From: Streptomyces capitiformicae
GTDB taxonomy: Bacteria > Actinomycetota > Actinomycetes > Streptomycetales > Streptomycetaceae
DNA length: 64,000 nucleotides
Direction: 5' to 3'
Assembly (NCBI RefSeq): GCF_002214185.1
Contig: NZ_CP022161.1
Span: forward strand, 124,001 to 188,000
The translations under genes and the position numbers were made by a program. Positions 27,893 through 46,736 of this stretch are shown here, one piece after another. The stretch's first letter is position 1, and each line of letters opens with the position of its first letter. Under the pieces are notes generated by a model. It did not search any database, was not told the origin of the DNA, and saw only the letters and a program-made list of their open reading frames with translations.

Positions 27893-28146
27893 CACGTCGC
27901 AATTACAGCGCTTCCCAGCCACTCGCGCAGCCCCTGCGACCATTCCGTGGTGATCGGGGCGCGTCTTCGGTGCGGTACGAGGCGTACGCGCTCGCCGGCA
28001 GGGACTTCCACGAGACACCGGACCGGCTGTCGGCCGGCGAACGCGCCGGGGCGGCCGTACCCGGCCAGGAGACGGCCCGGCGGGAGGTTTCCGAGGAAGG
28101 TGCATGCCTCCGCCACCAGGGCGAAGGCGGACCGGATCGGGCCCAC
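27889..28146 (-). CDS. Possible small protein coupled to the SpoIIE phosphatase gene
   Basis: An 85-codon frame (GTG at 28146) ends in a TGA that overlaps the GTG of the phosphatase gene, the same GTGA junction used by certain genes elsewhere in this window. The middle contains PVRCLVEVPAGERVRLVPHR. There is no recognisable domain and no ribosome site at the start. It may be a real short gene, or the tail of a decayed one. Confidence 0.35.
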   Translation of the reverse strand: MGPIRSAFALVAEACTFLGNLPPGRLLAGYGRPGAFAGRQPVRCLVEVPAGERVRLVPHRRRAPITTEWSQGLREWLGSAVIATW

Positions 28147-28336
28147 CGTACGGGACTACTGCGTGCCGCGGCTGATCCCGTTCAAGTCCGCTCCCGGCTT
28201 TGGCCGCGCTGGAACGGCTCGCGGGGCTGGGTAGCGGGGCTCGGCCCCCGCCCAGTGCTCGCCGTGCGTACCGGGCCGTCAGGGGGGAGCCTTGACCCGG
28301 GGGCCGTCGTGCCGCCGTGGGAGGAGGTGGTCGGGC
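28147..28336. promoter_or_regulatory. Divergent region between two SpoIIE phosphatase genes
   Basis: This 190-bp gap must hold the promoter of the 28337 gene and probably that of the minus-strand unit. No clear sigma-factor boxes were identified. GGAGGAGG at 28320-28327 is the ribosome site for 28337. Confidence 0.35.
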
Positions 28337-30478
28337 ATGTCCGACGTGTACGCGTCCCGGGGGCGGACCACCGTCGAGACGGCACGCCTGGGCCATCCGA
28401 TGCTGTCGCTGGCCCTGGCCGCGATGATGGACGACGTCGACGCGCACTCCGGCGCCGTGTATCTGCTGACAGCCGACGAGCCGGTGCTGGAGATGGCGGT
28501 CATGGCGGGGCTGCCGAGATCGTTCGCCGCGCCGTGGGAGCGGGTGGGACTGAGCACTCCGGTCCCGGTCGCCGAGGCCGTACGGGACCGGCGGCTCGTA
28601 TGGGTGAACGGCGAGGAGCAGATGGCCCGCCGCTACCCCCGTATCGCCGTGGTCCTGCCCTACCCCTTCGCCCTGGCCGCCCTGCCGGTGGCGACCCGCG
28701 ACACCACCTACGGCGCCGTCTTCCTCACCTGGCCCGGCTCGCACCCGCCGGAGCTCAGCGACCGTGAGCGGGACCATCTCACCTCGGCCTGCGACCGGCT
28801 CGCGAAACGGCTGCGGCGCGCGGAGGAGGAGGGCCGGCCGGTACTGCCGGAACCGGACCTGTCGGCGCCGTCGGCGACCACCGTCGCCGGGACGCTCGGC
28901 ACGGTGGAGGCGGCGCGGATGGTGGCGCGGCTGCCGTACGGGATGTGCGCGCTCGATCTGCACGGGCGGATCTCCTTCGCCAACGCGGCGACCGCCGAAC
29001 TGCTCGGCATCCCCGTCAGCGGGCTGCTCGGCACCCAGCTGTGGGCGTCCGTGCCCTGGCTGAACGATCCCTCGTACGAGGACCGGTACCGGGCCGCGCT
29101 GATGAGTCAGCACGTCACGTCGTTCGTGGCGCTCAAGCCGCCGAACGACTGGCTGTCGTTCCGGCTGTACCCGGGCACGAACGGGCTGAGCGTTCGCATC
29201 TCCCGGGCCCGGGCGGTCGCCGAGATGGAGGGCGCCGCGCGTCGGGATGACGACGAGCCGGGCCGCCTGGTGACCATCAACCATGTCCTGGCGCTGGCCA
29301 GCGCGCTCACCGAGGCGGTGGGGGTGCAGGACATGGTGGAGCTGGTCGCCAACGAGATCGTCCCGGCCATCGGCGCGCAGGCACTGCTGATGCTCGGTTC
29401 GCGGGCGGGGCGGCTGCATGTGCTGGGGCACCGCGGTTACGCGGATCCGCGCCTCGTGGAAGGCTTCGACGGTATGCCGCTCACCGCGCAGACCCCCGGC
29501 GCGCATGTCCTGAGCAGCGGGGTGCCCGCCTTCTTCGAGAGCCGACAGCAGTTGGAGCACCTGTATCCGATGCAGCGGACGACCCGGGACGGCCTGGGCG
29601 CCTGGGCGTATCTGCCGCTCATCGCCCAGGGGCGGCCGGTCGGCACCTGTGTGCTCGGGTACGCGGAACCGCATCCGTTCCCGGCGGACGAGCGTGCGGT
29701 GCTGACCAGCCTCAGCGGGCTCATCTCCCAGGCCCTGGAGCGCGCCCTGCTGTACGACGCCAAGCACCAGCTCGCCCACGGGCTGCAGGCCGCGCTGCTT
29801 CCGCACTCGCTGCCGTCGATCCCCGGCATCGAGTCGGCCTCCCGCTATCTGCCGGCGACCCGGGGCATGGACATCGGCGGCGACTTCTTCGACCTCGTGC
29901 TCTCGCACGGGCGGGCCTCGGCCGTGATCGGCGACGTACAGGGGCACAACGTGACGGCGGCGGGGCTGATGGGGCAGATCCGTACGGCCGTACGCGCGTA
30001 CACGACCGTCGGTCAGGCGCCGCAGGACGTGATGAGCAGTACCAACCGGCTGCTGATCGACCTCGGCTCCGAGTTGTTCGCCAGCTGTCTGTACCTGCGG
30101 CTCGACCCGGAGCACGGGATGGCCGTCATGGCGCGGGCCGGGCATCCACCGCCGTTGCTGCGCAGACCGGACGGGAAGGTGAAGGTGCTGGACCTCGCGG
30201 GTGGGCCGCTTCTGGGGATCGACGCGGACGCGGTGTATCCGACGACCGAGGTGGCGCTGGGCGAGGGTTCCCTGCTGGCCCTCTACACGGATGGGTTGAT
30301 CGAGTCGCCCGGGGTGGACATCGAGGATGCGCTGGCCGACCTCGGGGAGCGGCTCGCCTCCGTCGGGGAGCAGGCGTTGGATGCGGTCGCCGATGAGTTG
30401 GTCCGGGAGACGGAGACCGCGCAGGAGCGGCTGGACGACGTGGCCCTGCTTCTGTTGCGGGCGGCGAAGGTCGGGTGA
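28337..30478 (+). CDS. GAF/PAS SpoIIE-family protein phosphatase
   Basis: The 713-residue protein has an N-terminal GAF (about 20-180), a PAS domain (about 200-310, LPYGMCALDLHGRISFANAA) and a second GAF (about 330-490). A SpoIIE/PP2C catalytic domain follows (about 515-710, GGDFFDLV, GDVQGHNV, final DDVALLLL). Unlike its divergent neighbour it has no HATPase, so it is probably only a phosphatase. It should dephosphorylate STAS-type anti-anti-sigma factors, and one candidate is encoded at 46892. GGAGGAGG precedes the ATG. Sensing ligands are unknown. Confidence 0.88.
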   Translation: MSDVYASRGRTTVETARLGHPMLSLALAAMMDDVDAHSGAVYLLTADEPVLEMAVMAGLPRSFAAPWERVGLSTPVPVAEAVRDRRLVWVNGEEQMARRYPRIAVVLPYPFALAALPVATRDTTYGAVFLTWPGSHPPELSDRERDHLTSACDRLAKRLRRAEEEGRPVLPEPDLSAPSATTVAGTLGTVEAARMVARLPYGMCALDLHGRISFANAATAELLGIPVSGLLGTQLWASVPWLNDPSYEDRYRAALMSQHVTSFVALKPPNDWLSFRLYPGTNGLSVRISRARAVAEMEGAARRDDDEPGRLVTINHVLALASALTEAVGVQDMVELVANEIVPAIGAQALLMLGSRAGRLHVLGHRGYADPRLVEGFDGMPLTAQTPGAHVLSSGVPAFFESRQQLEHLYPMQRTTRDGLGAWAYLPLIAQGRPVGTCVLGYAEPHPFPADERAVLTSLSGLISQALERALLYDAKHQLAHGLQAALLPHSLPSIPGIESASRYLPATRGMDIGGDFFDLVLSHGRASAVIGDVQGHNVTAAGLMGQIRTAVRAYTTVGQAPQDVMSSTNRLLIDLGSELFASCLYLRLDPEHGMAVMARAGHPPPLLRRPDGKVKVLDLAGGPLLGIDADAVYPTTEVALGEGSLLALYTDGLIESPGVDIEDALADLGERLASVGEQALDAVADELVRETETAQERLDDVALLLLRAAKVG

Positions 30479-30548
30479 CTCCTGCCGGGGCGCCGACGCC
30501 CCCTGGGGGGTGTGGTGAAAGCCCCGCACAGCACCCCTGAAACGCACC

Positions 30549-30702: not shown

Positions 30703-32145
30703 CTAGTGCTCGACGACGCCCTGCTCGTGCTCCGCGCCGGCCTCTTCACCGGCACCGGCAGCGGCGGCTTCCTCACCGGCACCGGCGGCGGCGGCTTCCT
30801 CACCCGCGCCGGCCTCGCCACCGGCACCGGCCGCGGCGGCCTCGCCACCCGCACCCGCGGCGCCGGCCTCGTCACCAGCACCCGCAGCGGCGGCTTCCTC
30901 ACCGGCACCGGCGGCGGCGGCTTCCTCACCCGCGCCGGCCTCGCCACCGGCACCAGCGGCGGCGGCCTCGTCACCGGCACCGCCCGCGGCTTCCTCACCG
31001 GCGCCCGCGCCGCCGTCGCCGAGGGTGGCGCCGACCGCGGCCAGGGCGGTGGTGACCGGCTGGAAGAAGGTCTCGCCGCCGACGGTGCAGTCGCCACTGC
31101 CGCCGGAGGTCAGGCCGATGGCCTGGCCGTCCTGGGTGAACAGCGAGCCGCCGCTGTCGCCGGGCTCGGCGCAGACGTTGGTCTGGATGAGGCCGGTGAC
31201 CGTGCCCTCCGGGTAGTTCACCGTCGCGTCGAGGCCGGTGACCTGGCCGTCGGCGAGACCGGTGGTGCTGCCCATGCGGAACACCTGGAGACCGACCGTG
31301 GCCTCGCCGGCCGCGTTGATGTCGACCGTCTCGCCGTTGCCGAGGTCGACGGTGCTCGCCGCCTGGGTCGCCGGGTCGTTGTAGTTGACCAGCGCGAAGT
31401 CACCGTCGCCGGGGAACGTGGCGGTCGCCGCGTCGACCGTGCCGATCGGGGCGCCACCCTCCTCCTCGGACCACTCGGCCTCCGCGACACCGCAGTGACC
31501 GGCGGTCAGGAACGCGGGCGCCCCTTGGGCGTTGACGACGTTGAAGCCTGCGGAGCAGCGCGCGCCGCCGCCGAAGATGGCGTCGCCGCCCTCCAGGAAG
31601 GTCTTGAAGGTGCCGGCGGACTTCTTGATCTCCGCCATGCCCGAGCCGAGCGACTTGACCGTCGACTCGATGGTGTCCCAGTTCTCACCGGTGACCGTGG
31701 AGTCGGCGGTGACCTGGAGCTTGTTCGTACGGGGGTCGATCGCCCAGGCGGTGCCGGGGATGCTCGCCTTCTCCTTCAGCGTCGCCGCGCCGGCCTTGAG
31801 CTCGGACCAGCTGTTCTCGACCTCCTGGACCTTCGCACCGGCCTCCTGGGCCTGGATGATCACATTGTTGTCGTCGCCGTCGATCTCGATGCCGTCGATG
31901 ACCTGAATGATGAGCTGCTGCTCACTCGAGTTGTAATACGCGCCTGCGAACGCTTCACCGAGCGCTTCCCGGAGTTGGGAGGCGAGGTCCGAGGCGTCAC
32001 TCGCGGCGAGCGTCTTCGGGGCCGCCTGGTTGGACTCCGTCTGGGACGCCATGGCGTTCGGCAGGATGAGGGCCGCCGCTCCGAGTGCCGCCACGCCGCC
32101 TGCCGCTATAAAGGCCTTACGCTTGGTGGCTCGTTTGTGACTCAA
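30703..32145 (-). CDS. Secreted S1 serine protease with propeptide and long acidic Gly/Ala/Glu tail
   Basis: The 480-residue protein begins with a signal peptide (AFIAAGGVAALGAAALILP), then an alpha-lytic-type propeptide (about 35-175). The chymotrypsin-fold domain follows: His in LTAGHCG, Asp in DFALVNY and Ser in GDSGGS. The last 100 or so residues are low-complexity GAGEEAAAA-type repeats ending GAEHEQGVVEH; such a tail may hold the enzyme in the cell wall or bind calcium. The start is a TTG at 32145, chosen because AGGAGG lies seven bases upstream and no suitable ATG exists. It belongs to the streptogrisin/alpha-lytic group, but the tail is unusual. Confidence 0.88.
   Translation of the reverse strand: MSHKRATKRKAFIAAGGVAALGAAALILPNAMASQTESNQAAPKTLAASDASDLASQLREALGEAFAGAYYNSSEQQLIIQVIDGIEIDGDDNNVIIQAQEAGAKVQEVENSWSELKAGAATLKEKASIPGTAWAIDPRTNKLQVTADSTVTGENWDTIESTVKSLGSGMAEIKKSAGTFKTFLEGGDAIFGGGARCSAGFNVVNAQGAPAFLTAGHCGVAEAEWSEEEGGAPIGTVDAATATFPGDGDFALVNYNDPATQAASTVDLGNGETVDINAAGEATVGLQVFRMGSTTGLADGQVTGLDATVNYPEGTVTGLIQTNVCAEPGDSGGSLFTQDGQAIGLTSGGSGDCTVGGETFFQPVTTALAAVGATLGDGGAGAGEEAAGGAGDEAAAAGAGGEAGAGEEAAAAGAGEEAAAAGAGDEAGAAGAGGEAAAAGAGGEAGAGEEAAAAGAGEEAAAAGAGEEAGAEHEQGVVEH
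30758..30954. repeat. Direct repeats encoding the protease acidic tail
   Basis: A 71-bp block at 30758-30828 recurs without a single change at 30884-30954, 126 bp (42 codons) away. Shorter GC-rich variants surround it. The preserved frame and recent identity point to expansion by slippage or unequal recombination. Confidence 0.85.
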
Positions 32146-32353
32146 CTCTTGACCTCCTGGGGGCGGGGTCCGTGCCGCCGTCGGCGGGTGAACTGGGGGC
32201 GCCTGGTTGCCAGTTGGTACGGATGCTTCCGATGGGGTGTTCAACGCCTCGGAAAAAGTTTCCGATCTTCCGCTTCGCAAAGTGCGGTTCGGGTGGCATT
32301 TCACGACTTCCCACCCGCGTTCCCCGGCCCGAATCCCTGGGAACGATGCCGGC

Positions 32354-32767
32354 ATGACTCTCACACCCGCCGAAGCCGACAAGATCCTCGCCACCAACTT
32401 CGCCCCTTGGGTACTCGACCTCGGCCTCACCGCCGTGGAGTTGGACGAGCGACGCGCGGTCCTGCGCCTGCCGTGGTGCGACCGGCTCGCACGCGAGGGC
32501 GGCGCCCTGTCGGGGCAGGCGTTGATGGCCGCGGCGGACACGGCGACGGTGATCGCGGTGTCGGCGGCGCGCGGTTCCTTCGTACCGATGACCACGGTTC
32601 AGCAGTCGACCAGCTTCCAGCGAGCGGTCACGGGTGAGGACGTACTCGTCGAGGCGGTCCTCACCAAGCTCGGGCGCCGGATGGCTTTCGCCGACATCGC
32701 GATGACGACCGGGAGTTCGGGGGAGCTCGCGGCCCGGGCGAGCACGGTTTACGCGCTTCTGGGGTGA
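32354..32767 (+). CDS. Hotdog-fold PaaI-type thioesterase
   Basis: The 137-residue protein matches the hotdog fold of acyl-CoA thioesterases. LPWCDRLAREGGALSGQALMAAADTATVIA has the Gly-Gly-x-x-x-Gly-Gln helix start and the acidic residue used in catalysis, followed by TTVQQSTSFQRAVTGEDV. It should hydrolyse small or aromatic acyl-CoAs. The ATG at 32354 is divergent from the S1 protease. The natural substrate is unknown. Confidence 0.82.
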   Translation: MTLTPAEADKILATNFAPWVLDLGLTAVELDERRAVLRLPWCDRLAREGGALSGQALMAAADTATVIAVSAARGSFVPMTTVQQSTSFQRAVTGEDVLVEAVLTKLGRRMAFADIAMTTGSSGELAARASTVYALLG

Positions 32768-33270
32768 CGACAGGGCGCTCCTGTGACAACTGAGCGCAAT
32801 ACGTCAAGCGAGCAGACACGATCCGCTACCGATCGGTAGCCGTCCGTTCCCGTTCCCGATCGAAAAACCGGCTCCGGCGAATCTCCACATCGAATACCCA
32901 GTCAGGTCACGGCGCACCAAGGATCTGCACGGCCGGCGCCACCGCGCCGCGCCTTTGAGGCGGGACTGTCCAGTTCGTTTTCCGGTTGGCAACGAGCGGG
33001 CTGCGACGATGCGGCGCCCGGTGTGAAGAACTTGGCACCGCCGCGTGCGCAGGCCTGCACGGATGAGCCCTCATGGTCATCAAGTTCCCTGGTGAGAGGC
33101 TCTGTTGATTGGATGTGCGCCCCGGATCTCTGCTTTGATCCATCGCACCGCGGGGGCCGCCAAGCTCTCGGAGACGAGAAGTGGGCACCCACGTGTGCGG
33201 CCGTCGTTCTGTCCCCAGAAGGGGGCCGCTCCCCCCCCTTATGAAGAGCTATACGAAGGGAAGTTCCATC
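32768..33270. other. Intergenic region upstream of the NHLM peptide locus
   Basis: No convincing coding sequence lies in these 503 bp. It contains a perfect palindrome at 32825-32840, and a GTGGG-CA-CCCAC repeat at 33181-33192. GAAGGGAAG before 33271 is the ribosome site. The length suggests a regulated promoter for the peptide precursor. Confidence 0.5.
32825..32840. promoter_or_regulatory. Perfect 16-bp palindrome
   Basis: GCTACCGATCGGTAGC has no loop, so it reads as a protein operator and not a hairpin. It lies 58 bp after the thioesterase and about 430 bp before the peptide precursor. Confidence 0.55.
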
Positions 33271-33486
33271 ATGAACTCCACCCCCCAGGTTGAGACCGCC
33301 GAGCTGTCGGACGCCGCCCTCGACGCCGTCTCCGGCGGCCTGCAGGTCAACGCTCTCGGCACCGTCACCGGCCTGGTGGACGGCGTCGCCCCGGTCTCCG
33401 GCCTGGTCAACACGGCCGTCACCACGGTCGAGGGTGCCACCGGCCTGAGCACCGCCCCGGTCACGAGCCTGGTCGCCGGTCTCTGA
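33271..33486 (+). CDS. Double-glycine leader peptide precursor for the NHLM exporter
   Basis: The 71-residue precursor has a 23-residue leader ending ELSDAALDAVSGG, the typical pattern cut by C39 peptidases. The predicted 48-residue core starts LQVNALGTVTGLVDG and ends TSLVAGL. It is rich in Gly, Val, Thr, Leu and Ala and contains no Cys, Lys, Arg, His or aromatic residue, with GLV-type segments recurring. The peptide therefore cannot form lanthionines or disulfides. Similar Streptomyces peptides are often labelled type A2 lantipeptide, from memory, but the missing cysteine argues against that. GAAGGGAAG lies upstream of the ATG; an in-frame ATG at 33241 lacks a ribosome site. Transport genes follow. 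Confidence 0.82.
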   Translation: MNSTPQVETAELSDAALDAVSGGLQVNALGTVTGLVDGVAPVSGLVNTAVTTVEGATGLSTAPVTSLVAGL

Positions 33487-33508
33487 TCGAGCCCCAGTGC
33501 CGCTGAGT

Positions 33509-33533
33509 CCCGGAACCGCCTGACGGTTCCGGG
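33509..33533 (+). terminator. Hairpin between precursor and transporter genes
   Basis: Perfect 10-bp arms CCCGGAACCG and CGGTTCCGGG around CCTGA begin 22 bp after the precursor stop. As no other promoter is evident, it is probably a partial terminator that keeps precursor mRNA more abundant than transporter mRNA. Confidence 0.75.
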
Positions 33534-33608
33534 GCTCTCGGATGCCCGGACACCATCGGGCGCCCCGAAAGTCCTTTCGTCTCACATCGCGCAGGTGAGG
33601 GAAGTCCC

Positions 33609-34415
33609 GTGCAGTTCCGCCAACAGGCCCTCGCCAAGCTCCAGTCACCGGAGGAGCTCGACCTTCCGGTGCGCTTCGCCCGCCCCCAGGGCTGGCTGGT
33701 GCTGTCCATCACGGTGGTCGCCATGGCCGCCGCGTCCGTGTGGGCCGTCACCGGTTCGGTGACCTCCACGGTCAGCGCGCCCGCCATCCTCACCCACGGG
33801 CAGGGCAGTTACATCCTGCAGAGCCCCGTCGCCGGCCAGGTCACCGCCGTACTCGCGAAGCAGGGCGAGCGGCTGCCCGCCAAGGCACCGGTCCTGAAGG
33901 TCGCCACCGCCGAGGGCGAGACGGTCGTACGTTCCGTCGCCGCGGGCCGGGTCTCCGCGCTCGCCGCCACGATCGGCCAGATCATCCAGACCGGCGCCGA
34001 TGTCGCCGCGATCGAGAAGGTCGCCGACGCCGACGACCCGCTGTACGCCACGGTGTACGTCCCGGCCGAGAACGCCGCCTCCATCCCGAAGAACGCCGAA
34101 GTCGACCTCACCGTCCAGTCGGCGCCCACCCAGAGCTACGGTGTGCTGCGCGGTCATGTGAAGAAGGTGGACCGCACCGCCCAGACACCGCAGTCGATCG
34201 GCGCGTTCCTCGGTGACAGCCAGCTCGGCGAGCAGTTCACCAGGAAGGGCCGGCCGGTGGCCGTCACCGTACGCCTGGACCGCAAGGCGTCGACCGAGTC
34301 CGGCTACAAGTGGTCCTCGCAGGACGGGCCGCCCTTCGAGCTGTCCTCCATGACCATGGCCACGGGTTCGATCCGCATGGCCGACGAGCGTCCGATCGAT
34401 TGGCTGCTCCCGTGA
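33609..34415 (+). CDS. HlyD-like secretion protein of the NHLM peptide export system
   Basis: The 268-residue protein has one membrane helix (WLVLSITVVAMAAASVWAV, about 28-46) and a lipoyl/HlyD-type beta domain (GSYILQSPVAGQVTAVLAKQ to IGQIIQTGADVAAIEKV). In NHLM systems this adaptor links the ABC exporters to the outside. The GTG at 33609 is preceded by GAGGGAAG. The next gene overlaps its stop as GTGA. No outer-membrane partner is expected in an actinomycete, so it probably stabilises the complex or guides the peptide across the wall. Confidence 0.88.
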   Translation: MQFRQQALAKLQSPEELDLPVRFARPQGWLVLSITVVAMAAASVWAVTGSVTSTVSAPAILTHGQGSYILQSPVAGQVTAVLAKQGERLPAKAPVLKVATAEGETVVRSVAAGRVSALAATIGQIIQTGADVAAIEKVADADDPLYATVYVPAENAASIPKNAEVDLTVQSAPTQSYGVLRGHVKKVDRTAQTPQSIGAFLGDSQLGEQFTRKGRPVAVTVRLDRKASTESGYKWSSQDGPPFELSSMTMATGSIRMADERPIDWLLP

Positions 34416-36649
34416 CCCCACCGCAGGACACCGCGCCGCCGTCGGGGCACGGCAGGCGCAAGGCGGCGGCGAAGAAGCGCCCGGTGCCCAGGAGCAGGCA
34501 GCGGACCGTCCGTACGCCCACCGTCCTCCAGATGGAGGCCGTGGAGTGCGGTGCCGCCTCCCTCGCCATGGTTCTCGGCCACTACGGGCGGCACATCCCG
34601 CTGGAGGAGCTGCGCATCGCCTGCGGTGTCTCCCGGGACGGCTCGCGCGCGAGCAACCTCCTGAAGGCGGCCCGCGGTTACGGCCTGACCGCCAAGGGCA
34701 TGCAGATGGACGTGGCCGCCCTCGCGGAGGTGAAGGGTCCGGCCATCCTGTTCTGGGAGTTCAACCACTACGTCGTCTACGACGGGATGGGGCGCCGCTT
34801 CGGCCGGCGCGGCGTGCACATCAACGACCCCGGCAAGGGCCGCCGGTTCGTGCCGATGGAGGACTTCGACGCGAGCTTCACCGGTGTCGTCCTCGTCATG
34901 GAGCCCGGCGCCGACTTCGAGAGGGGCGGCCGCAAGCCCGGCGTCCTCGGCGCCATGCCGGCCCGGATGCGCGGCACCTCCGGCACCCTGCCCGCCGCCG
35001 TCCTCGCGAGCCTGCTCCTTGTGGCGGTCGGCGCGGCGGTACCCGCGCTGAGCCGCACGTACATCGACATGTTCCTGATCGGCGGCCAGACCTCGCTGCT
35101 GGGCGTGCTGTTCGCGTCGATGGGCGCGTGCGTGCTGCTGACGGTCCTGCTGACCTGGCTGCAACAGGCCAACCTGCTGCGCGGCCGTCTGATCTCCTCC
35201 ACCCTCTCCAGCGCCCGCTTCCTCAGGCATCTCCTCCGCCTGCCCGTCACCTTCTTCTCCCAGCGCAGCCCCGCCGACCTCGTCCAGCGGCTCCAGTCCA
35301 ACGACGTGGTCGCCGAGACCCTGGCCCGCGACCTCGCGGCGGCCGGTGTGGACGCGGTCGTCGTCGTCCTCTACGCCGTACTCCTCTATACGTACGATCC
35401 GCAGCTCACCTTCGTCGGCATCGCGGTGGCGCTGCTGAACGTGGTGGCGATGCGGGTGGTGATCCGGCTGCGCGCGACCCGTACGGCGAAACTGCGCGCC
35501 GACAGCGCACGGCTCACCAACACGGCGTACACCGGCCTGCAGTTGATCGAGACGATGAAGGCGACCGGCGGCGAGGAGGGCTACTTCCGCAAGTGGGCGG
35601 GCCAGCACGCCACCACGCTGGAGGAGCAGCAGCGCCTCGGCGTGCCGAGCGCGTGGCTGGGCGTGGTCGCGCCGACGCTCGCCACGCTCAACAGCGCGCT
35701 CATCCTCTGGATCGGAGGCATGCGCGCGGTCGAGGGCCACATATCCGTCGGCCTCCTGGTCGCCTTCCAGTCGCTGGTCACCCGCTTCACCGCGCCGATC
35801 ACCCGCCTCAACGGCGTCGCGGGCCGCATCCAGGACTTCGCGGCGGACGTCGCCCGGCTGAAGGACGTCGAGAACTTCCAGGCGGACCCGCTGTACACCC
35901 GCCCGGACGCCGGCGAGTCCACCCGCCGACTGCACGGCCACGTCGAGCTGGAGAACATCACCTTCGGCTACAGCCCCCTCGACAAACCCCTGCTCACGGG
36001 CTTCGACCTCACCGTCGGCCCAGGTCAGCAGGTGGCTCTGGTCGGCGGCTCGGGCAGCGGCAAGTCGACGGTGTCGAGGCTGATCTCGGGCCTGTACACC
36101 CCCTGGGAGGGCGTGATCCGCATCGACGGCCGACGACTTGAGGACATCCCGCGCGGCGCGCTCGCCACCTCCGTCTCCTTCGTCGACCAGGAGGTCTTCC
36201 TCTTCGAGGGCACGGTCCGCGACAACGTGGCCCTGTGGGACCCGTCGATCCCGGACGAGGCCGTGGTCGAGGCGCTGCGGGACGCCGCCCTGTACGACGT
36301 CGTCACCCGTCGCCCGGGCGGTATCAACAGCAGGGTCGAGCAGGACGGCCGCAACTTCTCCGGCGGGCAGCGCCAACGTCTGGAGATCGCCCGGGCTTTG
36401 GTGCGCAGGCCCAGCATCCTCGTCCTGGACGAGGTGACGAGCGCGCTCGACGCCGAGACCGAGCTGGTCGTCATGGACAACCTGCGCAAGCGCGGCTGCG
36501 CCTGTGTGGTGATCGCCCACCGGCTCAGCACGGTCCGCGACAGCGACGAGATCGTCGTCCTGCAGCACGGCACGATCGTGGAACGCGGCCGGCACGAGGA
36601 GCTGGTGGCACGCGGCGGCGCGTACGCCCAACTGGTCAGGGAGCGGTGA
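34412..36649 (+). CDS. NHLM peptide exporter with C39 leader peptidase and ABC ATPase
   Basis: This 745-residue protein starts with a C39 cysteine protease (about 35-170). The active cysteine is in MEAVECGAASL, the histidine in FNHYVVYDG and the aspartate in INDPGKG. It cuts after the double glycine of the precursor. Six membrane helices follow, then the ATPase: GGSGSGKST, FSGGQRQRL, VLDEVTSALD and the switch histidine in VIAHRLST. The GTG at 34412 overlaps the HlyD-like stop. It should process and export the 33271 peptide. Intact catalytic residues show that the locus is functional in principle. Confidence 0.92.
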   Translation: MTPPQDTAPPSGHGRRKAAAKKRPVPRSRQRTVRTPTVLQMEAVECGAASLAMVLGHYGRHIPLEELRIACGVSRDGSRASNLLKAARGYGLTAKGMQMDVAALAEVKGPAILFWEFNHYVVYDGMGRRFGRRGVHINDPGKGRRFVPMEDFDASFTGVVLVMEPGADFERGGRKPGVLGAMPARMRGTSGTLPAAVLASLLLVAVGAAVPALSRTYIDMFLIGGQTSLLGVLFASMGACVLLTVLLTWLQQANLLRGRLISSTLSSARFLRHLLRLPVTFFSQRSPADLVQRLQSNDVVAETLARDLAAAGVDAVVVVLYAVLLYTYDPQLTFVGIAVALLNVVAMRVVIRLRATRTAKLRADSARLTNTAYTGLQLIETMKATGGEEGYFRKWAGQHATTLEEQQRLGVPSAWLGVVAPTLATLNSALILWIGGMRAVEGHISVGLLVAFQSLVTRFTAPITRLNGVAGRIQDFAADVARLKDVENFQADPLYTRPDAGESTRRLHGHVELENITFGYSPLDKPLLTGFDLTVGPGQQVALVGGSGSGKSTVSRLISGLYTPWEGVIRIDGRRLEDIPRGALATSVSFVDQEVFLFEGTVRDNVALWDPSIPDEAVVEALRDAALYDVVTRRPGGINSRVEQDGRNFSGGQRQRLEIARALVRRPSILVLDEVTSALDAETELVVMDNLRKRGCACVVIAHRLSTVRDSDEIVVLQHGTIVERGRHEELVARGGAYAQLVRER

Positions 36650-36650
36650 G

Positions 36651-39515
36651 ATGACCTCCGTACACGACAGCCACGGGGGCCAGGATGTCCAGGGAAGCCA
36701 GGTGAACCACGGGGGCGACCTCGTCCTCGGCGCGCTCGGCGCCATGGGCACACCCCTCGACTGCACCGGCTACACCCGCCTCGACCTCGAAGGCCCGCAG
36801 GTGCTGTGGCTGGTGGTCTCCGGCGCCCTGGACCTGTTCGCGGTCGACGCCGAGCAGCAGGGCCACTGGCACCACCTCGGCCGCCTGGAAGCGGGCTCGC
36901 TGTTGCTCGGCCCGGTCGCCGGGCCGCAACACACCCTGGTCGCACGCCCGTTGCGGGACTGCGTGGTGCGCCGCATCGGGCTGCGCGAGCTGTACCAGCC
37001 GGTGAACACCGAGACCTGGTCGTACGACGAATGGGGCAACCCCCAGCTCGTACCCCCGCAGACGAGCCCGCTGGAGTACGCCCTCGCCCTGGGCGTCGGC
37101 CGTGGTCTGTCCATCCTCTTCCAGGCGCCGATGGCCACCGAGCAGGCGGCCGCGCTCACCGACGACGACGTGTTCTGGATGCAGGTGCCGCCCGGCAGCG
37201 TCCAGTACGGCTCGCTGTACGGCGCGGAGGCGGCGGCCGACCTGCTGATGGACCCCGGGGTCTGGCAGAGCATGGTCGACCAGCAGTACCGGCTGCTGGC
37301 CACGCTGGACCGCTGGATCGAGCAGCTGGAACGCACCCACGAGGACCGTACGGCGGCGGGTATCAAGGCCGGCGAGGCGGTCCGCGCCCAGGCCGACCGA
37401 ACCCTGCTCGCGTCCATCGGCAAGTCGTCCGCGACCCGGCGTACGACGGCGGCCGACGCCGACGCCACGTACGCGGCCTGCAAGGTCGTCGCCCAGGCGG
37501 CCGGGATCGCTCTCTCCGAACCCGCGCAGAGCGGCACGGAGAGCGACCGGCTCGACCCGGTGGAACGCATCGCGCTCGCCTCCCGGGTCCGGGTCCGCGC
37601 CGTACGGCTCACCGGAAGCTGGTGGCGGGAGAACGTGGGCCCGCTGGTCGGGCACCGGGCCCTGTCCGGCGCGCCGGTGGCGCTGCTGTGGCGGCGCGGC
37701 GGATATGTGGCCGTGCAGCCGTCGTCCGGCCGGGAGACGCCGATCGAGAAGGCGAACGTGGCGGAGTTCGAGCCGCGTGCCGTGATGTTCTACCGCCCGC
37801 TGCCCGAGCGGGTGCTGAGCCCCCTGCGTCTGATGCGGTTCAGCCTCCACGGCACCGGCGGCGACATGACCGGCCTGCTGCTGAGCGGCCTGGTGACGGT
37901 CGCGCTCGGGTCGCTCGTACCGATCGCGACGGGCAAGGTGCTCGGCGAGTACGTGCCGAAGGCGCAGGAGAACCTCATCGTGCAGGCCTGCTTGGCGGTG
38001 ATGCTCGCGAGCGTGGTGTCGGCGGCGTTCCTGCTGTTGCAGAACCTGACGATCCTGCGCCTGGAGGGCAGGATCGAGGCGACGCTCCAACCGGCGGTCT
38101 GGGACCGCCTGTTGAGACTTCCGACCAAGTTCTTCACGACCCGCTCGACCGGTGAACTCGCCAGTGCCGCCATGGGCATCAGCGCGATCCGTCGGACGCT
38201 CGCGGGGGTCGGCCCGGTGGTCGCCCAGTCGGTGACGATCGGTGCCGTGAACCTGGCTCTGCTGCTCTGGTACAGCGTGCCGATGGCGCTGGCCGCGATC
38301 GGGATGCTCGTGGTCGTCGCGGCGGTCTTCCTCGGCCTCGGCCTGTGGCAGGTGCGCTGGCAGCGCCGCCTGGTGGTGCTGAGCAACAAGCTGAACAACC
38401 AGGCCTTCCAGACCCTGCGCGGGCTGCCGAAGCTGCGGGTGGCGGCGGCCGAGAACTACGCGTACGCGGCCTGGGCGGGCGAGTTCGCGCGCAGCCGGGA
38501 GCTCCAGCAGAAGGTCGGCGGGATCAAGAACCTCAACACGGTGCTCGGCGCGGTGTATCTGCCGCTGTGCACCCTGCTGATGTTCATGCTCCTGGCGGGC
38601 CCGGCACGGGGTTCGATGTCGGCGGCGGAGTTCCTGACGTTCAACACGTCCGTGACGATGCTGCTGACGTCGGTCACCCAGCTCACGGGCGCGTTCGTCT
38701 CGGCGGTGGCGGTGCTGCCGTTGTTCGAGGAGATCAAGCCGGTGCTGGAGGCGACGCCCGAGGTGCGTACGGCGAGTACACGCCCAGGTGTACTGACGGG
38801 TGGGATCGAGGCCCGCCGGCTGTCCTTCCGGTACGCGGACGACGGCCCGCTCGTACTGGACGACGTGTCCTTCGACATCAGGCCGGGCGAGTTCGTGGCG
38901 ATCGTCGGCCCGAGCGGCTGCGGCAAGTCGACACTGCTGAGGCTGCTGATCGGCTTCGACAAGCCGGTCTCGGGCAGCGTCCTGTACGACGGCCAGGACC
39001 TCGCCGCCCTGGACCAGTCCGCCGTACGCCGCCAGTGCGGTGTCGTACTCCAGCACGCCCAACCCTTCACCGGGTCGATCCTGGACGTCATCTGCGGCAC
39101 CGAGCCGTTCACACCGGAGGAGGCGATGGCCGCCGCCGAGATGGCGGGGCTCGCCGAGGACATCAAGCGGATGCCGATGGGGCTGCACACCATCGTCCAG
39201 GGCAACGGCGCGATCTCCGGCGGCCAGCGGCAGCGCCTGATGATCGCCCAGGCCCTGATCCGCCGGCCCCGCATCCTCTTCTTCGACGAGGCCACGAGCG
39301 CGCTCGACAACGAGACCCAGCGGACGGTCATCGAGAGCACGCGTGCCCTCAACGCCACGCGCGTCGTCATCGCCCACCGGTTGTCCACGGTCATGGACGC
39401 CGACCGGGTGGTGGTGATGGAGGACGGCAAGGTCGCGGAGGTGGGGGCGCCGGGACGGTTGTTGGCGAACACGGGGGGTCGGCTTCACGAGCTGGTCCGC
39501 CGCCAGATGGCATGA
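36651..39515 (+). CDS. Second NHLM-type ABC transporter with cyclic-nucleotide-like N-terminus
   Basis: The 954-residue protein is the partner ABC protein of NHLM systems. The first 400 residues lack a peptidase and instead have a beta-rich, cupin/cNMP-like region (GPQVLWLVVSGALDLFAVD, WHHLGRLEAGSLLLGP). The six-helix membrane domain (about 410-690) and an ATPase follow, with GPSGCGKST, ISGGQRQRL, FFDEATSALD and VIAHRLST. Its ATG is 1 bp after the preceding stop. It may pair with the peptidase-ABC protein as a heterodimer. No tailoring enzyme is found on either side. Confidence 0.9.
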   Translation: MTSVHDSHGGQDVQGSQVNHGGDLVLGALGAMGTPLDCTGYTRLDLEGPQVLWLVVSGALDLFAVDAEQQGHWHHLGRLEAGSLLLGPVAGPQHTLVARPLRDCVVRRIGLRELYQPVNTETWSYDEWGNPQLVPPQTSPLEYALALGVGRGLSILFQAPMATEQAAALTDDDVFWMQVPPGSVQYGSLYGAEAAADLLMDPGVWQSMVDQQYRLLATLDRWIEQLERTHEDRTAAGIKAGEAVRAQADRTLLASIGKSSATRRTTAADADATYAACKVVAQAAGIALSEPAQSGTESDRLDPVERIALASRVRVRAVRLTGSWWRENVGPLVGHRALSGAPVALLWRRGGYVAVQPSSGRETPIEKANVAEFEPRAVMFYRPLPERVLSPLRLMRFSLHGTGGDMTGLLLSGLVTVALGSLVPIATGKVLGEYVPKAQENLIVQACLAVMLASVVSAAFLLLQNLTILRLEGRIEATLQPAVWDRLLRLPTKFFTTRSTGELASAAMGISAIRRTLAGVGPVVAQSVTIGAVNLALLLWYSVPMALAAIGMLVVVAAVFLGLGLWQVRWQRRLVVLSNKLNNQAFQTLRGLPKLRVAAAENYAYAAWAGEFARSRELQQKVGGIKNLNTVLGAVYLPLCTLLMFMLLAGPARGSMSAAEFLTFNTSVTMLLTSVTQLTGAFVSAVAVLPLFEEIKPVLEATPEVRTASTRPGVLTGGIEARRLSFRYADDGPLVLDDVSFDIRPGEFVAIVGPSGCGKSTLLRLLIGFDKPVSGSVLYDGQDLAALDQSAVRRQCGVVLQHAQPFTGSILDVICGTEPFTPEEAMAAAEMAGLAEDIKRMPMGLHTIVQGNGAISGGQRQRLMIAQALIRRPRILFFDEATSALDNETQRTVIESTRALNATRVVIAHRLSTVMDADRVVVMEDGKVAEVGAPGRLLANTGGRLHELVRRQMA

Positions 39516-40348: not shown

Positions 40349-41617
40349 CTAGCGGCGCGGCAGGAGCACGATCGACGCCACCGGGATCGCGGCCAGCACC
40401 AGCCACGGCACGGCCGCAGGCAACCCGGTGTCCATCAGCGACCCCGTACCCGCACTGCCCACCAGCACGATCAACCCGGAGACGGATGACATCGCCCCCG
40501 TGTACAGCCCGAGCCGCCCCGAGGCGGCAAGGTCCGGCACCCACGCCCGCGCCGCCGGCGCCACGAGCATCTGCCCCAACGTCAGCAGCACGACGAACCC
40601 GGCGGCGGGCAGCAGCCCAACGTTCCCCGTCCACGAGGCCGGCCGTATCACCGCCACCACCCCGAACCCGGCGGCGATCAGCAGCAGCCCCGCCGTCATG
40701 GACCGCCGCAGGTCGAGCCGCTCGGCGGCCCACCGCGTGACCGGCAGCTGCGCGGTCACGACGAGCAGCGAGGACAACCCGAACAGCCACGCCAGCGCCG
40801 ACTGAGAGCCCGTGGCACGCTCCACCTCGTCAGGAAGGAGGAGGTACAGCTGGTTGTAGGCCAGCAGATACGCCCCGTACGTGCAGCACAGCGCCAGGAA
40901 CCGGCGGTTGCTCAACAGCCCTCCCAGCCCGCCCTTCACCTCGACCCGTTCCCGGCCGGGGATGTGCTGCGGCAGCAGCCAGAAGTGCCCGGCGAGAACC
41001 AGAACGAAAACCCCGGCCCCGGCGAGGCACACCACGCGATAGTCCACGGCCAGCAGCAGCGCCCCGATGAGCGGTCCGACGAACGCCCCGGCCTGCCCCG
41101 CCACCGTGAACAGCGCGAGGACGCTCGTACGGGAGCCGCCCCCCGCATCCTCCCAGACCACCGCCTGCCGGGCGACCTCGGACTCCACGGCCGGCGAGAA
41201 CAGCGCGGCGGCGAATCCGATCAGCAGGACGGACCCGATGACCGACCAGTCCGCCTCCGCGTATCCCAGCCACGCGAACCCGGCGATGCGCAGCACACAT
41301 CCCGCGAGGACGACGGGCCGTACGCCGTAACGGTCGGCCAGCGCACCGCCCACCACGAACAGCCCTTGCTGGCTGAAGGTCCGCAGACCCAGCACGAAGC
41401 CGACCATCCAGCCGGCCATACCGATCGCCGTACCGAGGTGCTCGGCGAGGAACGGCAGCACCGCGTAGAAGCCGAGGTTGAAGGCGAGCTGGGTAAGGAT
41501 CAGCAACCGCAGAAGAGGGTTGAGCCGCTCCCAGGTGTGCCGCCGGGACGGCCGGGCGGATTCCGGCCGGGGCGGCTCACTCATCGTCTTCGCGTCGCTC
41601 GATTGCTGCTGGGTCAT
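40349..41617 (-). CDS. MFS efflux transporter
   Basis: The 422-residue protein has about twelve membrane helices (from LLRLLILTQLAFNLGFYAVLP). The major-facilitator loop GGALADRYGVRP between helices 2 and 3 supports a proton-coupled exporter of the drug-efflux type. Its ATG overlaps the permease stop as ATGA, so it is cotranscribed with the peptide-type ABC genes. The cargo may be a peptide or amino-acid-derived compound, but that is a guess from context. Confidence 0.85.
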   Translation of the reverse strand: MTQQQSSDAKTMSEPPRPESARPSRRHTWERLNPLLRLLILTQLAFNLGFYAVLPFLAEHLGTAIGMAGWMVGFVLGLRTFSQQGLFVVGGALADRYGVRPVVLAGCVLRIAGFAWLGYAEADWSVIGSVLLIGFAAALFSPAVESEVARQAVVWEDAGGGSRTSVLALFTVAGQAGAFVGPLIGALLLAVDYRVVCLAGAGVFVLVLAGHFWLLPQHIPGRERVEVKGGLGGLLSNRRFLALCCTYGAYLLAYNQLYLLLPDEVERATGSQSALAWLFGLSSLLVVTAQLPVTRWAAERLDLRRSMTAGLLLIAAGFGVVAVIRPASWTGNVGLLPAAGFVVLLTLGQMLVAPAARAWVPDLAASGRLGLYTGAMSSVSGLIVLVGSAGTGSLMDTGLPAAVPWLVLAAIPVASIVLLPRR

Positions 41618-43383
41618 GCGGTCTCTCCGTCGGTGAGGGCTACGGCGGTCTTCGGCTGCCCCGCGGTCCGGACGAACGGGCGCGGCCGGCGCACTCCGCC
41701 CGCCGCCGTGACCGCCAGGGCGCCCAGCAGGGCGAGTGCGGCCGCGGGGGCGAGGACGGCCCAGGGGGCGCGTTCGGCGTACGGCTGGTTCTCGGCGAGG
41801 AGCAGGCCCCACTCGGGGTCGGGCGGCTGGGCGCCGAGGCCGAGGAAGCCGAGGGAGGTGAGGGCGAGGGCCACGCCGGGCAGCCGGAGGAGGGCGTGGC
41901 GGGCGACGGGGGGCAGTAGGGCGGGGAGGAGTTCGCGGCGGAGCAGGTAGGCGTCGCCCGCGCCCAGGCCCTTGGTGGCCGTGATGTGCGTGGTGGCCCG
42001 CTCCTGTTCGAGCAGGGCCGTGGTGTGCGCCGCCAGCGGTACCCAGGCGACGGCGGCCACGGCCAGCGCCGGTGTCGCCGCTCCGCTGCCGGCGACTCCG
42101 GCGACGAGCAGGCCCGCAAGGACCGCCGGTACGGCGTTGACGGTGTCGACGAGGGGTCCGGAGAAGCGGGGCAGCAGCCCCAGCAGGACGCCCACGAGCA
42201 GGGCGGTCGCGCTGATCGCGACGGCGAGGGCGAGCGTGGTGAACGCGCCGTGGCCGATGCGGGCGAGGAGGTCGCGGCCGAGGGCGTCGGTGCCCAACGG
42301 GTGGTCCCAGGAAGGGGGTTGGAGCCGGGCGCCGGTGTCCAGGGCGAGCGGATCGCGGGTCAGGCCGAGCGCGACGACCGCCAGCAGGACGGTTCCGTAG
42401 AGCAGAGGAGTGCGGCGTGGCACCGGCGGCCTGGGGCGGTGCAGGGAGTGCAGGGCGCCGTCGCGCAGGGCCGGGCCGATGAGGAGGCGGGCGGTGAGGC
42501 GGGTGAGGGCTCCGGCGAGGGCGGCCAGCAGGACCAGGGCGAGGGTGCCGGCCTGGAGGGCGGGGAGGTCCTGGGCGAGGGCGGCCTGGAGGGTGGTGCG
42601 GCCGAGGCCGGGAATGTCGAAGATCTGCTCGACGGTGACCGCGCCGCCGGTGAGGCCGACCACGAACAGGCCGACGTTCGGGAGCAGTCCGGGTATGCAG
42701 CGGCGCACGGCTTGGCGGGCTGTGGCACGCCCCGATATGCCGCGTGCGGCGGCGGCCAGTGCCCAGGGTTCGGCGAAAGCGCCGGGCAGCAGGTCGTCGA
42801 GCATCCGGCCGAGCAGCGCTCCGGCGGGCAGGCCGAGCGCGAGGGCGGGCAGCACCATCCACCGCGGCCCGTACCAGCCGAGCGCGGGCAGCCAGCCTAG
42901 GTGCACGCCGACCACGACGGCGAGTACGGACGCGGTGAGGAACTCCGGCAGCGCGGCCACCATCGCCGCCGCGCTGCCGCCGCCGCGGCGCTCGTCGAGG
43001 CGGCGGCGCGCGCCCAGCCACAGGGTGCGCGAGCACACCGCCGCGGCCGTCAGCGCGGCGACGACGAGCGCGGCCGCCATCAGCAGCAGGGAGACACCGA
43101 CGGCCTGGACGACGGCCGGGGTGACCTCTGCGCCGGAGATCCACGAACGGCCCGCGTCACCGCGCGCCAGCCCGCCGAACCACTCCCCCAGCAGTTTCAT
43201 CGGGCCCGCGTCCAGACCGAGTTCGGCGCGGATCGCCGCCAGCACCTCGGGCGTCGGCTCGCGTTCGGCCGAGCGGGCCTTGAGGACCGTGAGCGCCGGG
43301 TCGGTGCGCGACAGCCACGGCAGCAGGCCGATGCCGCACAGCAGGCCGGCGGCGAGCAGGGCGCGCCAGAGTGCCCGCCTCAG
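41614..43383 (-). CDS. Fused DppB-DppC-type ABC permease, probable CTG start
   Basis: This protein of about 589 residues joins the two permease subunits of a peptide/nickel-type importer in one chain. The first half has GLLPNVGLFVVGLTGGAVTVEQIFDIPGLG (DppB-like) and the second half has HPLGTDALGRDLLARI (DppC-like). Each half carries the cytoplasmic EAA-type loop. No ATG, GTG or TTG suits the start. A CTG at 43383 overlaps the binding-protein stop as CTGA, mirroring the ATGA/GTGA junctions elsewhere, with GGGGA upstream. No ATPase gene is present between this gene and the MFS gene. Confidence 0.82.
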   Translation of the reverse strand: MRRALWRALLAAGLLCGIGLLPWLSRTDPALTVLKARSAEREPTPEVLAAIRAELGLDAGPMKLLGEWFGGLARGDAGRSWISGAEVTPAVVQAVGVSLLLMAAALVVAALTAAAVCSRTLWLGARRRLDERRGGGSAAAMVAALPEFLTASVLAVVVGVHLGWLPALGWYGPRWMVLPALALGLPAGALLGRMLDDLLPGAFAEPWALAAAARGISGRATARQAVRRCIPGLLPNVGLFVVGLTGGAVTVEQIFDIPGLGRTTLQAALAQDLPALQAGTLALVLLAALAGALTRLTARLLIGPALRDGALHSLHRPRPPVPRRTPLLYGTVLLAVVALGLTRDPLALDTGARLQPPSWDHPLGTDALGRDLLARIGHGAFTTLALAVAISATALLVGVLLGLLPRFSGPLVDTVNAVPAVLAGLLVAGVAGSGAATPALAVAAVAWVPLAAHTTALLEQERATTHITATKGLGAGDAYLLRRELLPALLPPVARHALLRLPGVALALTSLGFLGLGAQPPDPEWGLLLAENQPYAERAPWAVLAPAAALALLGALAVTAAGGVRRPRPFVRTAGQPKTAVALTDGETA

Positions 43384-44912: not shown

Positions 44913-44969
44913 GGTCCTTGGTTCTCTGTGGGGAGCAGGTGGGACGGGGAACGGGGCGGGTGCGGAGCC

Positions 44970-45686: not shown

Positions 45687-46736
45687 ATGCGAATGAGCGT
45701 GCTGGATGTGGGATCGAACACGGTACGACTCGTGGTGGCGGACGCGGAGGGCGGCGTACCACTGCCGGTGCACACCGCCAAGTGGCGGTTGCGGTTGTCC
45801 GAGCAGGTGCCGCCCGGCGGAGATGTCCCCGGCGAGGCCGTACGGAGACTGTCCGAGGCCGTCACGGCGGCGGCGGGCACGGCCGAGCGCTGGGGGGCTT
45901 CGACTCCACTGGCGTTCGCGACGGCCGTGGTGCGCTCCGCGCCGAACTGCCGGGAGGTGCTGCGCACCGTGCGCGCCGACACCGGCGTCCGCCTGTGCAC
46001 GCTGCCCGGCGAGGTGGAGGCGGAGCTCACCTTCCTCGGGGCGCGGCGGTGGATGGGCTGGCGGTCGGGGCCGCTCGCGCTGCTCGACATCGGGGGCGGG
46101 TCACTGGAAGTGGCCTTCGGCCGGGGGCGGCTGCCGGACTTCGTGGCGTCGCTGCCGCTGGGCGCGGGTCGGCTCACCCATGAGTTCTTCCACGGCGAGG
46201 ACCCTCCGTCGCCGGAGAGCGTCAGGGCGCTGCGGCGCAAGGTCCGCCATCAACTCCGGGATGTGGCCGCGCGCATCCGCTGGGAGGGGCCGCGCACCGC
46301 CGTGGCGACCTCGCGCACCTTCCAGCAGCTGGCCAGGTTGTGCGGGGCCGCGCCGGGCCGCCACGGCCCGTTCGTGGAGCGGGAGTTGCACCGGTCGGAC
46401 CTGCGCCGCGCGGCCGAGCGGCTCGCCACGATCCCGGCCGCCGAGCGTTCCGCCCTCCCGGGCATCTCCGCGCCCCGCGCGGCGCAGAGTCTGGCCGGAG
46501 CGCTGGTCGGCCACACCACCATGAAGCTGACCGGCCTCAGGACGGTGACCATCTGCCCCTGGGCGATCCGCGAGGGCGTGCTGTTACGGCACATCGAGGA
46601 CGGCCCGTCCTGGTGGGCGGAGATCACCCACGACGACTGCCCGGCCGCGATCCCGTCCCCGACCCCGGCGGCCACGGCCGGGCCGTCGAGTTCGGCGGGC
46701 GCGGTACCGCTCCGCATCGCCACGCCGGCCCGCTGA
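45687..46736 (+). CDS. Ppx/GppA family exopolyphosphatase-like protein
   Basis: The 349-residue protein belongs to the ASKHA-fold Ppx/GppA family. It has the N-terminal phosphate loop VLDVGSNTVRLVV and the second nucleotide motif LALLDIGGGSLEVAFG, with the base-like glutamate in GEVEAELTFLGA. It hydrolyses inorganic polyphosphate or pppGpp. It is short compared with E. coli Ppx (about 510 residues) because the C-terminal helical domains are missing, as in actinobacterial homologues. The final 40 residues are Pro/Ser/Ala-rich. Confidence 0.88.
   Translation: MRMSVLDVGSNTVRLVVADAEGGVPLPVHTAKWRLRLSEQVPPGGDVPGEAVRRLSEAVTAAAGTAERWGASTPLAFATAVVRSAPNCREVLRTVRADTGVRLCTLPGEVEAELTFLGARRWMGWRSGPLALLDIGGGSLEVAFGRGRLPDFVASLPLGAGRLTHEFFHGEDPPSPESVRALRRKVRHQLRDVAARIRWEGPRTAVATSRTFQQLARLCGAAPGRHGPFVERELHRSDLRRAAERLATIPAAERSALPGISAPRAAQSLAGALVGHTTMKLTGLRTVTICPWAIREGVLLRHIEDGPSWWAEITHDDCPAAIPSPTPAATAGPSSSAGAVPLRIATPAR

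Follow-up and report, generated by a model that had tools for sequence, protein, structure and literature searches.

A double-glycine peptide and NHLM-type export locus in Streptomyces, with leader-sharing peptide genes elsewhere in the genome

We describe a peptide export locus in a 64,000-nucleotide stretch of the genome of Streptomyces capitiformicae (RefSeq assembly GCF_002214185.1, contig NZ_CP022161.1, positions 124,001 to 188,000 of the forward strand), hereafter the window; the genome is a single contig of 10,989,391 bases. In the window, a gene for a short double-glycine precursor precedes genes for an HlyD-like adaptor and two ATP-binding cassette (ABC) proteins of the NHLM type, and a second precursor gene with the same leader lies far from them. 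We propose, with a probability of about 0.6, that one exporter serves a set of co-regulated secreted peptides, encoded at dispersed sites and probably unmodified, with a surface or signal role. The proposal builds on observed gene content, conservation, leader sharing, co-occurrence and motif sharing, and on the induction of SCO0753-0756 in Streptomyces coelicolor, as described in the accessible text of PMC6629963.

The precursor and its export genes

The export unit consists of the following features, in window coordinates.

33271-33486, forward strand: precursor gene, 71 aa, double-glycine type
33271..33339, forward strand: double-glycine leader, 23 residues (MNSTPQVETAELSDAALDAVSGG), with E11, D14, L17, D18, G22 and G23 invariant
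33340..33486, forward strand: 48-residue core and stop codon, defined by sequence and conservation
33609..34415, forward strand: short HlyD-like membrane-fusion adaptor, 268 aa (Pfam HlyD_3, 2.6e-12; TIGR03794, 151.4 bits)
34412..36649, forward strand: C39 peptidase-permease-ATPase (NHLM ABC1), 745 aa (TIGR03796, Peptidase_C39)
36651..39515, forward strand: second NHLM ABC protein (ABC2), without a peptidase domain, 954 aa (TIGR03797)

The first-pass annotation of this DNA had described a textbook double-glycine leader and a core free of cysteine, basic and aromatic residues. Both descriptions hold, as the glycine pair occupies residues 22-23 with hydrophobic residues at -4, -7 and -12, and the 48 residues of the core include no C, K, R, H, F, W or Y. 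It had also placed a C39 peptidase-ABC protein, an HlyD-like protein and a second NHLM ABC protein beside the precursor, and this was likewise borne out. ABC1 scores 1024 bits against TIGR03796 (cut-off 853.3) and matches Pfam Peptidase_C39 at 5.2e-35, ABC2 scores 887 bits against TIGR03797 (cut-off 709.4), and the HlyD-like protein just misses the TIGR03794 cut-off of 156.2, its match covering model positions 251-417 of 421. In addition, ABC1 can be aligned over its full length with ComA and with peptidase-containing bacteriocin transporters of known structure (PDB matches). C39 domains of known families cut after the double glycine during export.

Precursor matches (E <= 0.001) were found in 94 of 150 genomes sampled from the genus, some of them being the distant genes described below, and the precursor is therefore not a chance open reading frame. 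All 80 named loci with a related precursor belong to Streptomyces. The 111 most similar loci, including the window's own (30 + 80 + 1), yielded 97 distinct close precursors, every one 71 residues long, with a mean pairwise identity of 90% in the leader and 83% in the core. Among these 97 cores, Cys, Phe, Trp, Tyr and Lys occur in none, Arg in one and His in three. More divergent precursors adjacent to the export genes (18 cores from 17 loci) have cores of 42-62 residues, none with Cys, Lys or Arg and two with an aromatic residue. A lack of core conservation among relatives had been named beforehand as grounds for rejecting the original interpretation; the core was found to be conserved. Leader positions E11, D14, L17, D18, G22 and G23 are unchanged in 38 leaders, both adjacent and distant. 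The export genes are equally persistent: the adaptor and ABC1 are present in 80/80 named loci and ABC2 in 79/80, the one miss being a 3.6-kb contig, while tblastn located HlyD in 80/80 named and 17/17 divergent loci, and all three genes are present in 17/17 divergent loci.

The precursor differs from surrounding genes in codon usage, with 15% G-ending codons in its four-fold boxes versus 31-52% in HlyD, ABC1, ABC2 and a downstream Ppx/GppA phosphatase gene, and 24% in a neighbouring protease gene; this strong bias suggests high expression. In several relatives, an in-frame ATG lies six codons upstream of the precursor start. AlphaFold2, run with 40 aligned precursors, returned a helical model of low confidence (mean pLDDT, the predicted local distance difference test, 56.7). 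A glycine-zipper core was considered and rejected, G30 being conserved in only 66%. The precursor matches Pfam Bacteriocin_IIc at E 0.64, far under the cut-off of that family, and scores 11.7 bits against the NHLP-type leader model TIGR03793, versus the 50.9 bits needed.

Leader and transporter occur together

Presence and absence were counted in the 150 genomes of the genus sample, which also served for the motif counts; these and the taxon counts are raw and ignore kinship. A 24-position leader model matches in 108 genomes and an ABC1 orthologue (at least 76% identity) is present in 108, the two coinciding in 107, with one genome having the leader only, one the ABC gene only, and 41 neither. 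The leader-only genome is a 79%-complete draft, and the ABC-only genome carries an ABC gene with one internal stop that starts at base 25 of its contig; both exceptions look like assembly gaps. Four genomes that contain only a C39-ABC protein of 36-56% identity have no leader.

Across the class (296 genomes), the leader was found in 22 genomes, all in the window's genus (one of 114 genera), and across the family (121 genomes) in 62, from 9 of 17 genera. Within the genome samples examined, the system is thus found in the window's family only. Plasmid carriage was considered and rejected; it concerned one record, the 1.16-Mb linear S. chartreusis NZ_CP108841.1, which has an adjacent-type precursor in an unannotated stretch.

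Distant precursors share the leader

In the genome of S. capitiformicae, a leader search gave exactly two matches, 3.2 Mb apart: the window gene and a gene at C1:3385058 (L113:5059-5265) that encodes the same leader with another core, LNPHVSVVAGPATITDADVLAQVDAVKDQVLGAVGHHQVGVCVSI. No relatives of HlyD, ABC1 or ABC2 were found within ~5 kb of this distant gene, and a Pfam scan of four of its neighbours (not all genes) identified a sulfate permease, a flavin adenine dinucleotide (FAD) oxidoreductase, a TetR regulator and a polysaccharide deacetylase. The surroundings of similar distant genes in other genomes are mostly unrelated too, except in small groups of a few loci.

Among 150 listed leader places, the weakest near E 7e-8, 99, in 98 genomes, lie no more than 4.5 kb from ABC1 and at least 46 are elsewhere (38 genomes), the distant count being a lower bound because it rests on the places listed; the remaining five, on drafts, are ambiguous and were kept apart from both counts. 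The nearest distant leader on the contig of ABC1, among the places listed, is 204 kb off. We compiled 52 distinct distant cores, leaving aside the ABC-adjacent L196-L199 and L236; some members were drawn from class-sample genomes, and L193 and L194 come from the ambiguous drafts. The cores comprise one clear family of 16, to which the S. capitiformicae core belongs, a group of 31 that is only loosely chained by composition, and smaller groups.

A promoter-like motif precedes adjacent and distant genes

Upstream of the window precursor we identified the following elements.

33109..33141, forward strand: promoter-like element (TTGGAT at 33109-33114, 19-bp spacer, extended -10)
33130-33141, forward strand: extended -10 within CTGCTTTGATCC (TTTGAT at 33134-33139)
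33255..33263, forward strand: ribosome-binding site GAAGGGAAG, from the upstream alignment

The motif GTGCTTNNATC is present at most 260 bp upstream of 89/110 adjacent-type and 26/37 other precursor genes (the latter including four ABC-adjacent divergent genes), where shuffled sequences lead one to expect 0.10 and 0.06, respectively, and the opposite strand has none. Of the 106 adjacent-type regions with the motif, 78 have TTGG at a distance of 19 bp ahead of the hexamer; among the 26 others, 11 have it at 18 or 19 bp. From its sequence, the motif looks like an extended -10 (TGC-TTTGAT), and we infer that it may act as a promoter.

Searched for in its own right across the 150 genomes, exact GTGCTTTGATCC gave 105 listed sites, of which 82 precede a listed leader by 52-152 bp; the reversed control gave 2 sites in all. 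In the S. capitiformicae genome (11 Mb), [CG]TGCTTTGATCC has exactly two sites, one before each precursor; the single GTGCTTTGATCC site precedes the distant gene, and the single CTGCTTTGATCC site is at window positions 33130-33141. Most other GTGCTTTGATCC sites away from leaders fall in a few unrelated contexts. Two repeated contexts hold GTGCTTTGATCC with no leader peptide downstream:

GTGCTTTGATCC context one: L250, L258, L260, L265, L266, L268, L270
GTGCTTTGATCC context two: L252, L257, L261, L263, L264, L267

The 5' untranslated stretch of the window gene (33146-33270) is well conserved (TGTCCCCAGAGGGGGCCGCTCCCCCCTTGTG, then GAAGGGAAG), GAAGGGAAGTTCC being identical in 26/26 aligned upstream regions, and a similar stretch precedes distant genes of the S. 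capitiformicae type. An RNA element in this region was considered and rejected, with a fold z-score of -1.23, 25 of 200 shuffles as good, and one chance match in Rfam.

Modification of the peptide

The absence of a tailoring enzyme near the locus, asserted in the first-pass annotation, was upheld by a scan of five proteins at 30.7-39.5 kb (the precursor, HlyD, the two ABC proteins and a secreted serine protease), which gave no match to the LanM, radical-SAM, YcaO or P450 families. We also surveyed neighbouring genes of at least 90 aa, with a GC filter, in 64 of the 80 named loci (those of at least 16 kb) and in 16 divergent loci, a procedure that under-called HlyD (27/64). No conserved tailoring gene was found beside the locus in either group, the rest of the genome not having been searched systematically. 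The lanthipeptide class does not fit, as Cys occurs in 0/97 close and 0/18 divergent adjacent cores and no synthetase is among the scanned proteins. The earlier annotation had allowed two outcomes, export without modification or enzymes encoded elsewhere. The former is favoured by the Cys-free cores (97 + 18) and by the lack of a conserved tailoring gene in the 64 + 16 loci surveyed; the latter retains a small probability.

The S. capitiformicae genome contains a second C39/NHLM export locus (L114:4590-14560; C1:10326589-10336559) with a YcaO protein (SagD-type) and a SagB-type dehydrogenase. Its precursor ends in GGTSYCCNPCCCQS and gives a weak NHLP/TOMM-nitrile leader match, and the locus is probably a thiazole/oxazole-type peptide cluster. 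Modification of the window peptide by this cluster was considered and judged unlikely.

Known counterparts

The basic unit is already known in print. The accessible text of a 2019 paper (PMC6629963) presents SCO0753 of S. coelicolor as a 77-aa hydrophobic Cys-free peptide of unknown function, encoded upstream of the secretion operon SCO0754-0756 and conserved in many Streptomyces. The genes are strongly induced through the Sco5282/5283 two-component system: activation of the Sco5282 kinase raised the expression of SCO0753 more than that of any other gene, and in the null mutant SCO0753-0756 showed hardly any expression; the authors suggest export by SCO0754-0756 and a change in the hyphal surface (PMC6629963). 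This two-component system changes pellet formation in liquid culture. SCO0757 is given as an exopolyphosphatase, and an earlier label of the locus as a probable lanthipeptide is cited (PMC6629963). Elsewhere, as far as the accessible passages go, two papers put SCO0753 or SCO0756 under bacteriocin, and one counts sco0756 among up-regulated efflux genes.

The S. coelicolor locus shares the gene order of peptide, HlyD-like protein, two ABC proteins and then exopolyphosphatase, an arrangement that is contiguous in S. coelicoflavus L054, and the window locus is most probably the orthologue of SCO0753-SCO0756 by synteny, rather than by sequence comparison. The peptides differ in length, 77 aa in S. 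coelicolor versus 71 in the window, and neither distant cargo nor a shared promoter is mentioned in the accessible text of PMC6629963. Nothing on the distant cargo set or the shared motif was found in the open-licence literature, subscription papers and preprints being mostly outside the search.

Class II bacteriocin exporters and ComA resemble the window system in the C39 peptidase-ABC architecture, the double-glycine leader and a probably unmodified product, but the window core is conserved and has no basic residue, a second ABC protein is present, and no conserved immunity-like gene of at least 90 aa was found at the locus. With prochlorosins and shared pneumococcal bacteriocin exporters, one enzyme or one exporter handles several separately encoded leader peptides; prochlorosins, however, are modified by one LanM, and no such enzyme was found at the window locus. 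SapB (RamS) of Streptomyces is a Cys-derived lanthipeptide, whereas the window core has no Cys; as a small hydrophobic morphogenetic peptide, SapB, which PMC6629963 discusses, nonetheless represents the proposed type of function. As for the NHLM/NHLP systems, to the extent that the accessible text of PMC2887384 describes them, window ABC1 and ABC2 pass TIGR03796 and TIGR03797, but the leader is short and non-NHLP, no modifying enzyme was found, and HlyD falls just under TIGR03794. HetC of Nostoc is likewise a peptidase-containing ABC exporter, used in cell differentiation, although its cargo is described as unknown and both the organism and the gene set differ (accessible text of PMC10986499).

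Neighbouring genes

One further gene served as a synteny marker.

45687..46736, forward strand: Ppx/GppA phosphatase gene, SCO0757 counterpart (Pfam PF02541, 1.3e-52)

This gene probably does not belong to the export unit. It lies directly 3' of ABC2 in S. coelicoflavus L054 and ~6 kb further on in the window, where oligopeptide-type ABC importer genes and an acetyltransferase gene (41614-45554, reverse strand) stand between the two; since Ppx adjoins ABC2 in L054, this stretch looks inserted.

On the 5' side, a divergent gene (30703-32595, reverse strand) encodes a secreted serine protease of the alpha-lytic type whose long tail is rich in Ala, Gly and Glu; this gene adjoins the precursor in 77/80 named loci and 1/17 divergent loci. 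Beyond it lie, on opposite strands, two genes for SpoIIE-type phosphatases that contain GAF and PAS domains (25475-30547, reverse; 28292-30478, forward); one of the two has relatives in 62/64 close loci. The protease and this SpoIIE-type gene were considered as partners of the system and rejected: they are present in 60 and 62 of the 64 close loci but in 1 and 0 of the 16 divergent ones.

Proposed mechanism and alternative explanations

In the mechanism that we propose, the C39 exporter, with the HlyD-like adaptor and ABC2, would cut the leader after the double glycine and release an unmodified, hydrophobic, Gly/Val/Thr-rich peptide of 48 residues. The same exporter would serve cargo peptides encoded singly elsewhere, with the same leader and different small-residue-rich cores, and near and distant genes would probably be made together, often via the same extended -10 promoter. 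As part of the Sco5282/5283 envelope programme, the products would most likely have an extracellular role, on the surface of the hyphae or in signalling. A role as a hydrophobic surface or signalling peptide, raised in the first-pass annotation and already put forward for SCO0753 in PMC6629963, is plausible.

Several observations weigh against this proposal. Cleavage, export of the adjacent and distant peptides, their unmodified state and their function are steps that we infer. Seven of the 52 distant cores contain one Cys (none has two) and 17 contain Lys or Arg. The leader is missing in 42 of the 150 genomes, so that the system is not essential, and co-occurrence with the transporter was counted without correction for phylogeny. 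No motif precedes 11 of the 37 other precursor genes, and 23 of the 105 GTGCTTTGATCC sites are not upstream of a listed leader, only one of these leading into another precursor gene (L251). In the S. capitiformicae genome, the looser [CG]TGCTTNNATCC is found 8 times and its control 5 times. Finally, the ratio of nonsynonymous to synonymous diversity (pN/pS) is higher in the core (0.61) than in the transporter genes (0.17-0.35). This value is hard to read because the core pS is unusually low, 0.184 compared with 0.29-0.33 in the three partner genes, while the core pN of 0.112 is close to that of HlyD (0.117).

Three other explanations were considered. The peptides could be unmodified bacteriocins of the class II type that inhibit related bacteria, the scattered precursors forming an arsenal with one exporter. 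Such systems typically combine a double-glycine leader with a C39 exporter, ABC1 can be aligned with ComA and bacteriocin transporters, the distant cores are variable, and S. coelicolor papers, in their accessible parts, label the locus bacteriocin. This role is nevertheless unlikely, because the adjacent core is strongly conserved and lacks basic residues and because no immunity-like gene of at least 90 aa is conserved beside the locus, where a smaller one would have been missed. It could also be argued that the product is a ribosomally synthesized and post-translationally modified peptide (RiPP) and that its tailoring enzyme is encoded at another place in the genome. Other known cases of this exporter family involve modified NHLP-type peptides (accessible text of PMC2887384), and a YcaO/SagB cluster with a separate C39/NHLM exporter is present in the genome. 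We regard this as quite improbable, because the core has no Cys and no conserved enzyme lies nearby. The YcaO cluster, moreover, encodes a Cys-rich precursor of its own, whose leader differs, and the other 149 genomes gave no further C39-ABC match of the YcaO-cluster kind at E <= 1e-100 besides the orthologue.

The distant genes, in turn, might have no role as cargo, being non-functional duplicates or relics in which the leader has simply been inherited. In favour of this, their neighbourhoods are mostly not conserved, and most sampled genomes have no distant gene among the listed places. Yet the distant genes are open, carry a leader and a ribosome-binding site, and often have the promoter-like motif; they include the family of 16 related cores, and 38/38 genomes with a clearly separate gene also have an ABC1 orthologue. 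We therefore consider the relic explanation very improbable and prefer a shared exporter with dispersed cargo.

Implications for Streptomyces biology

The system centres on an NHLM-type exporter with neither an NHLP leader nor an adjacent enzyme, which apparently serves several separately encoded peptides. The Cys-free core contradicts the probable-lanthipeptide label of the locus. If the distant peptides are cargo, cluster-based genome mining would miss a good part of the system, which a search for leader plus promoter would find. If true, the proposal would also provide a clean case of a single C39 exporter for several separately encoded unmodified peptides, and a defined, testable set of secreted peptides tied to a two-component system that affects pellet formation. 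In a broader form, to which we would give roughly even odds, members of the Streptomycetaceae would have a dispersed, co-regulated peptide secretome in which a conserved C39/ABC hub handles a varying set of unmodified peptides from free-standing genes with a common leader and often a common extended -10 promoter, each strain having one conserved adjacent peptide and 0 to ~3 strain-specific ones that tune the hyphal surface or cell-cell signalling.

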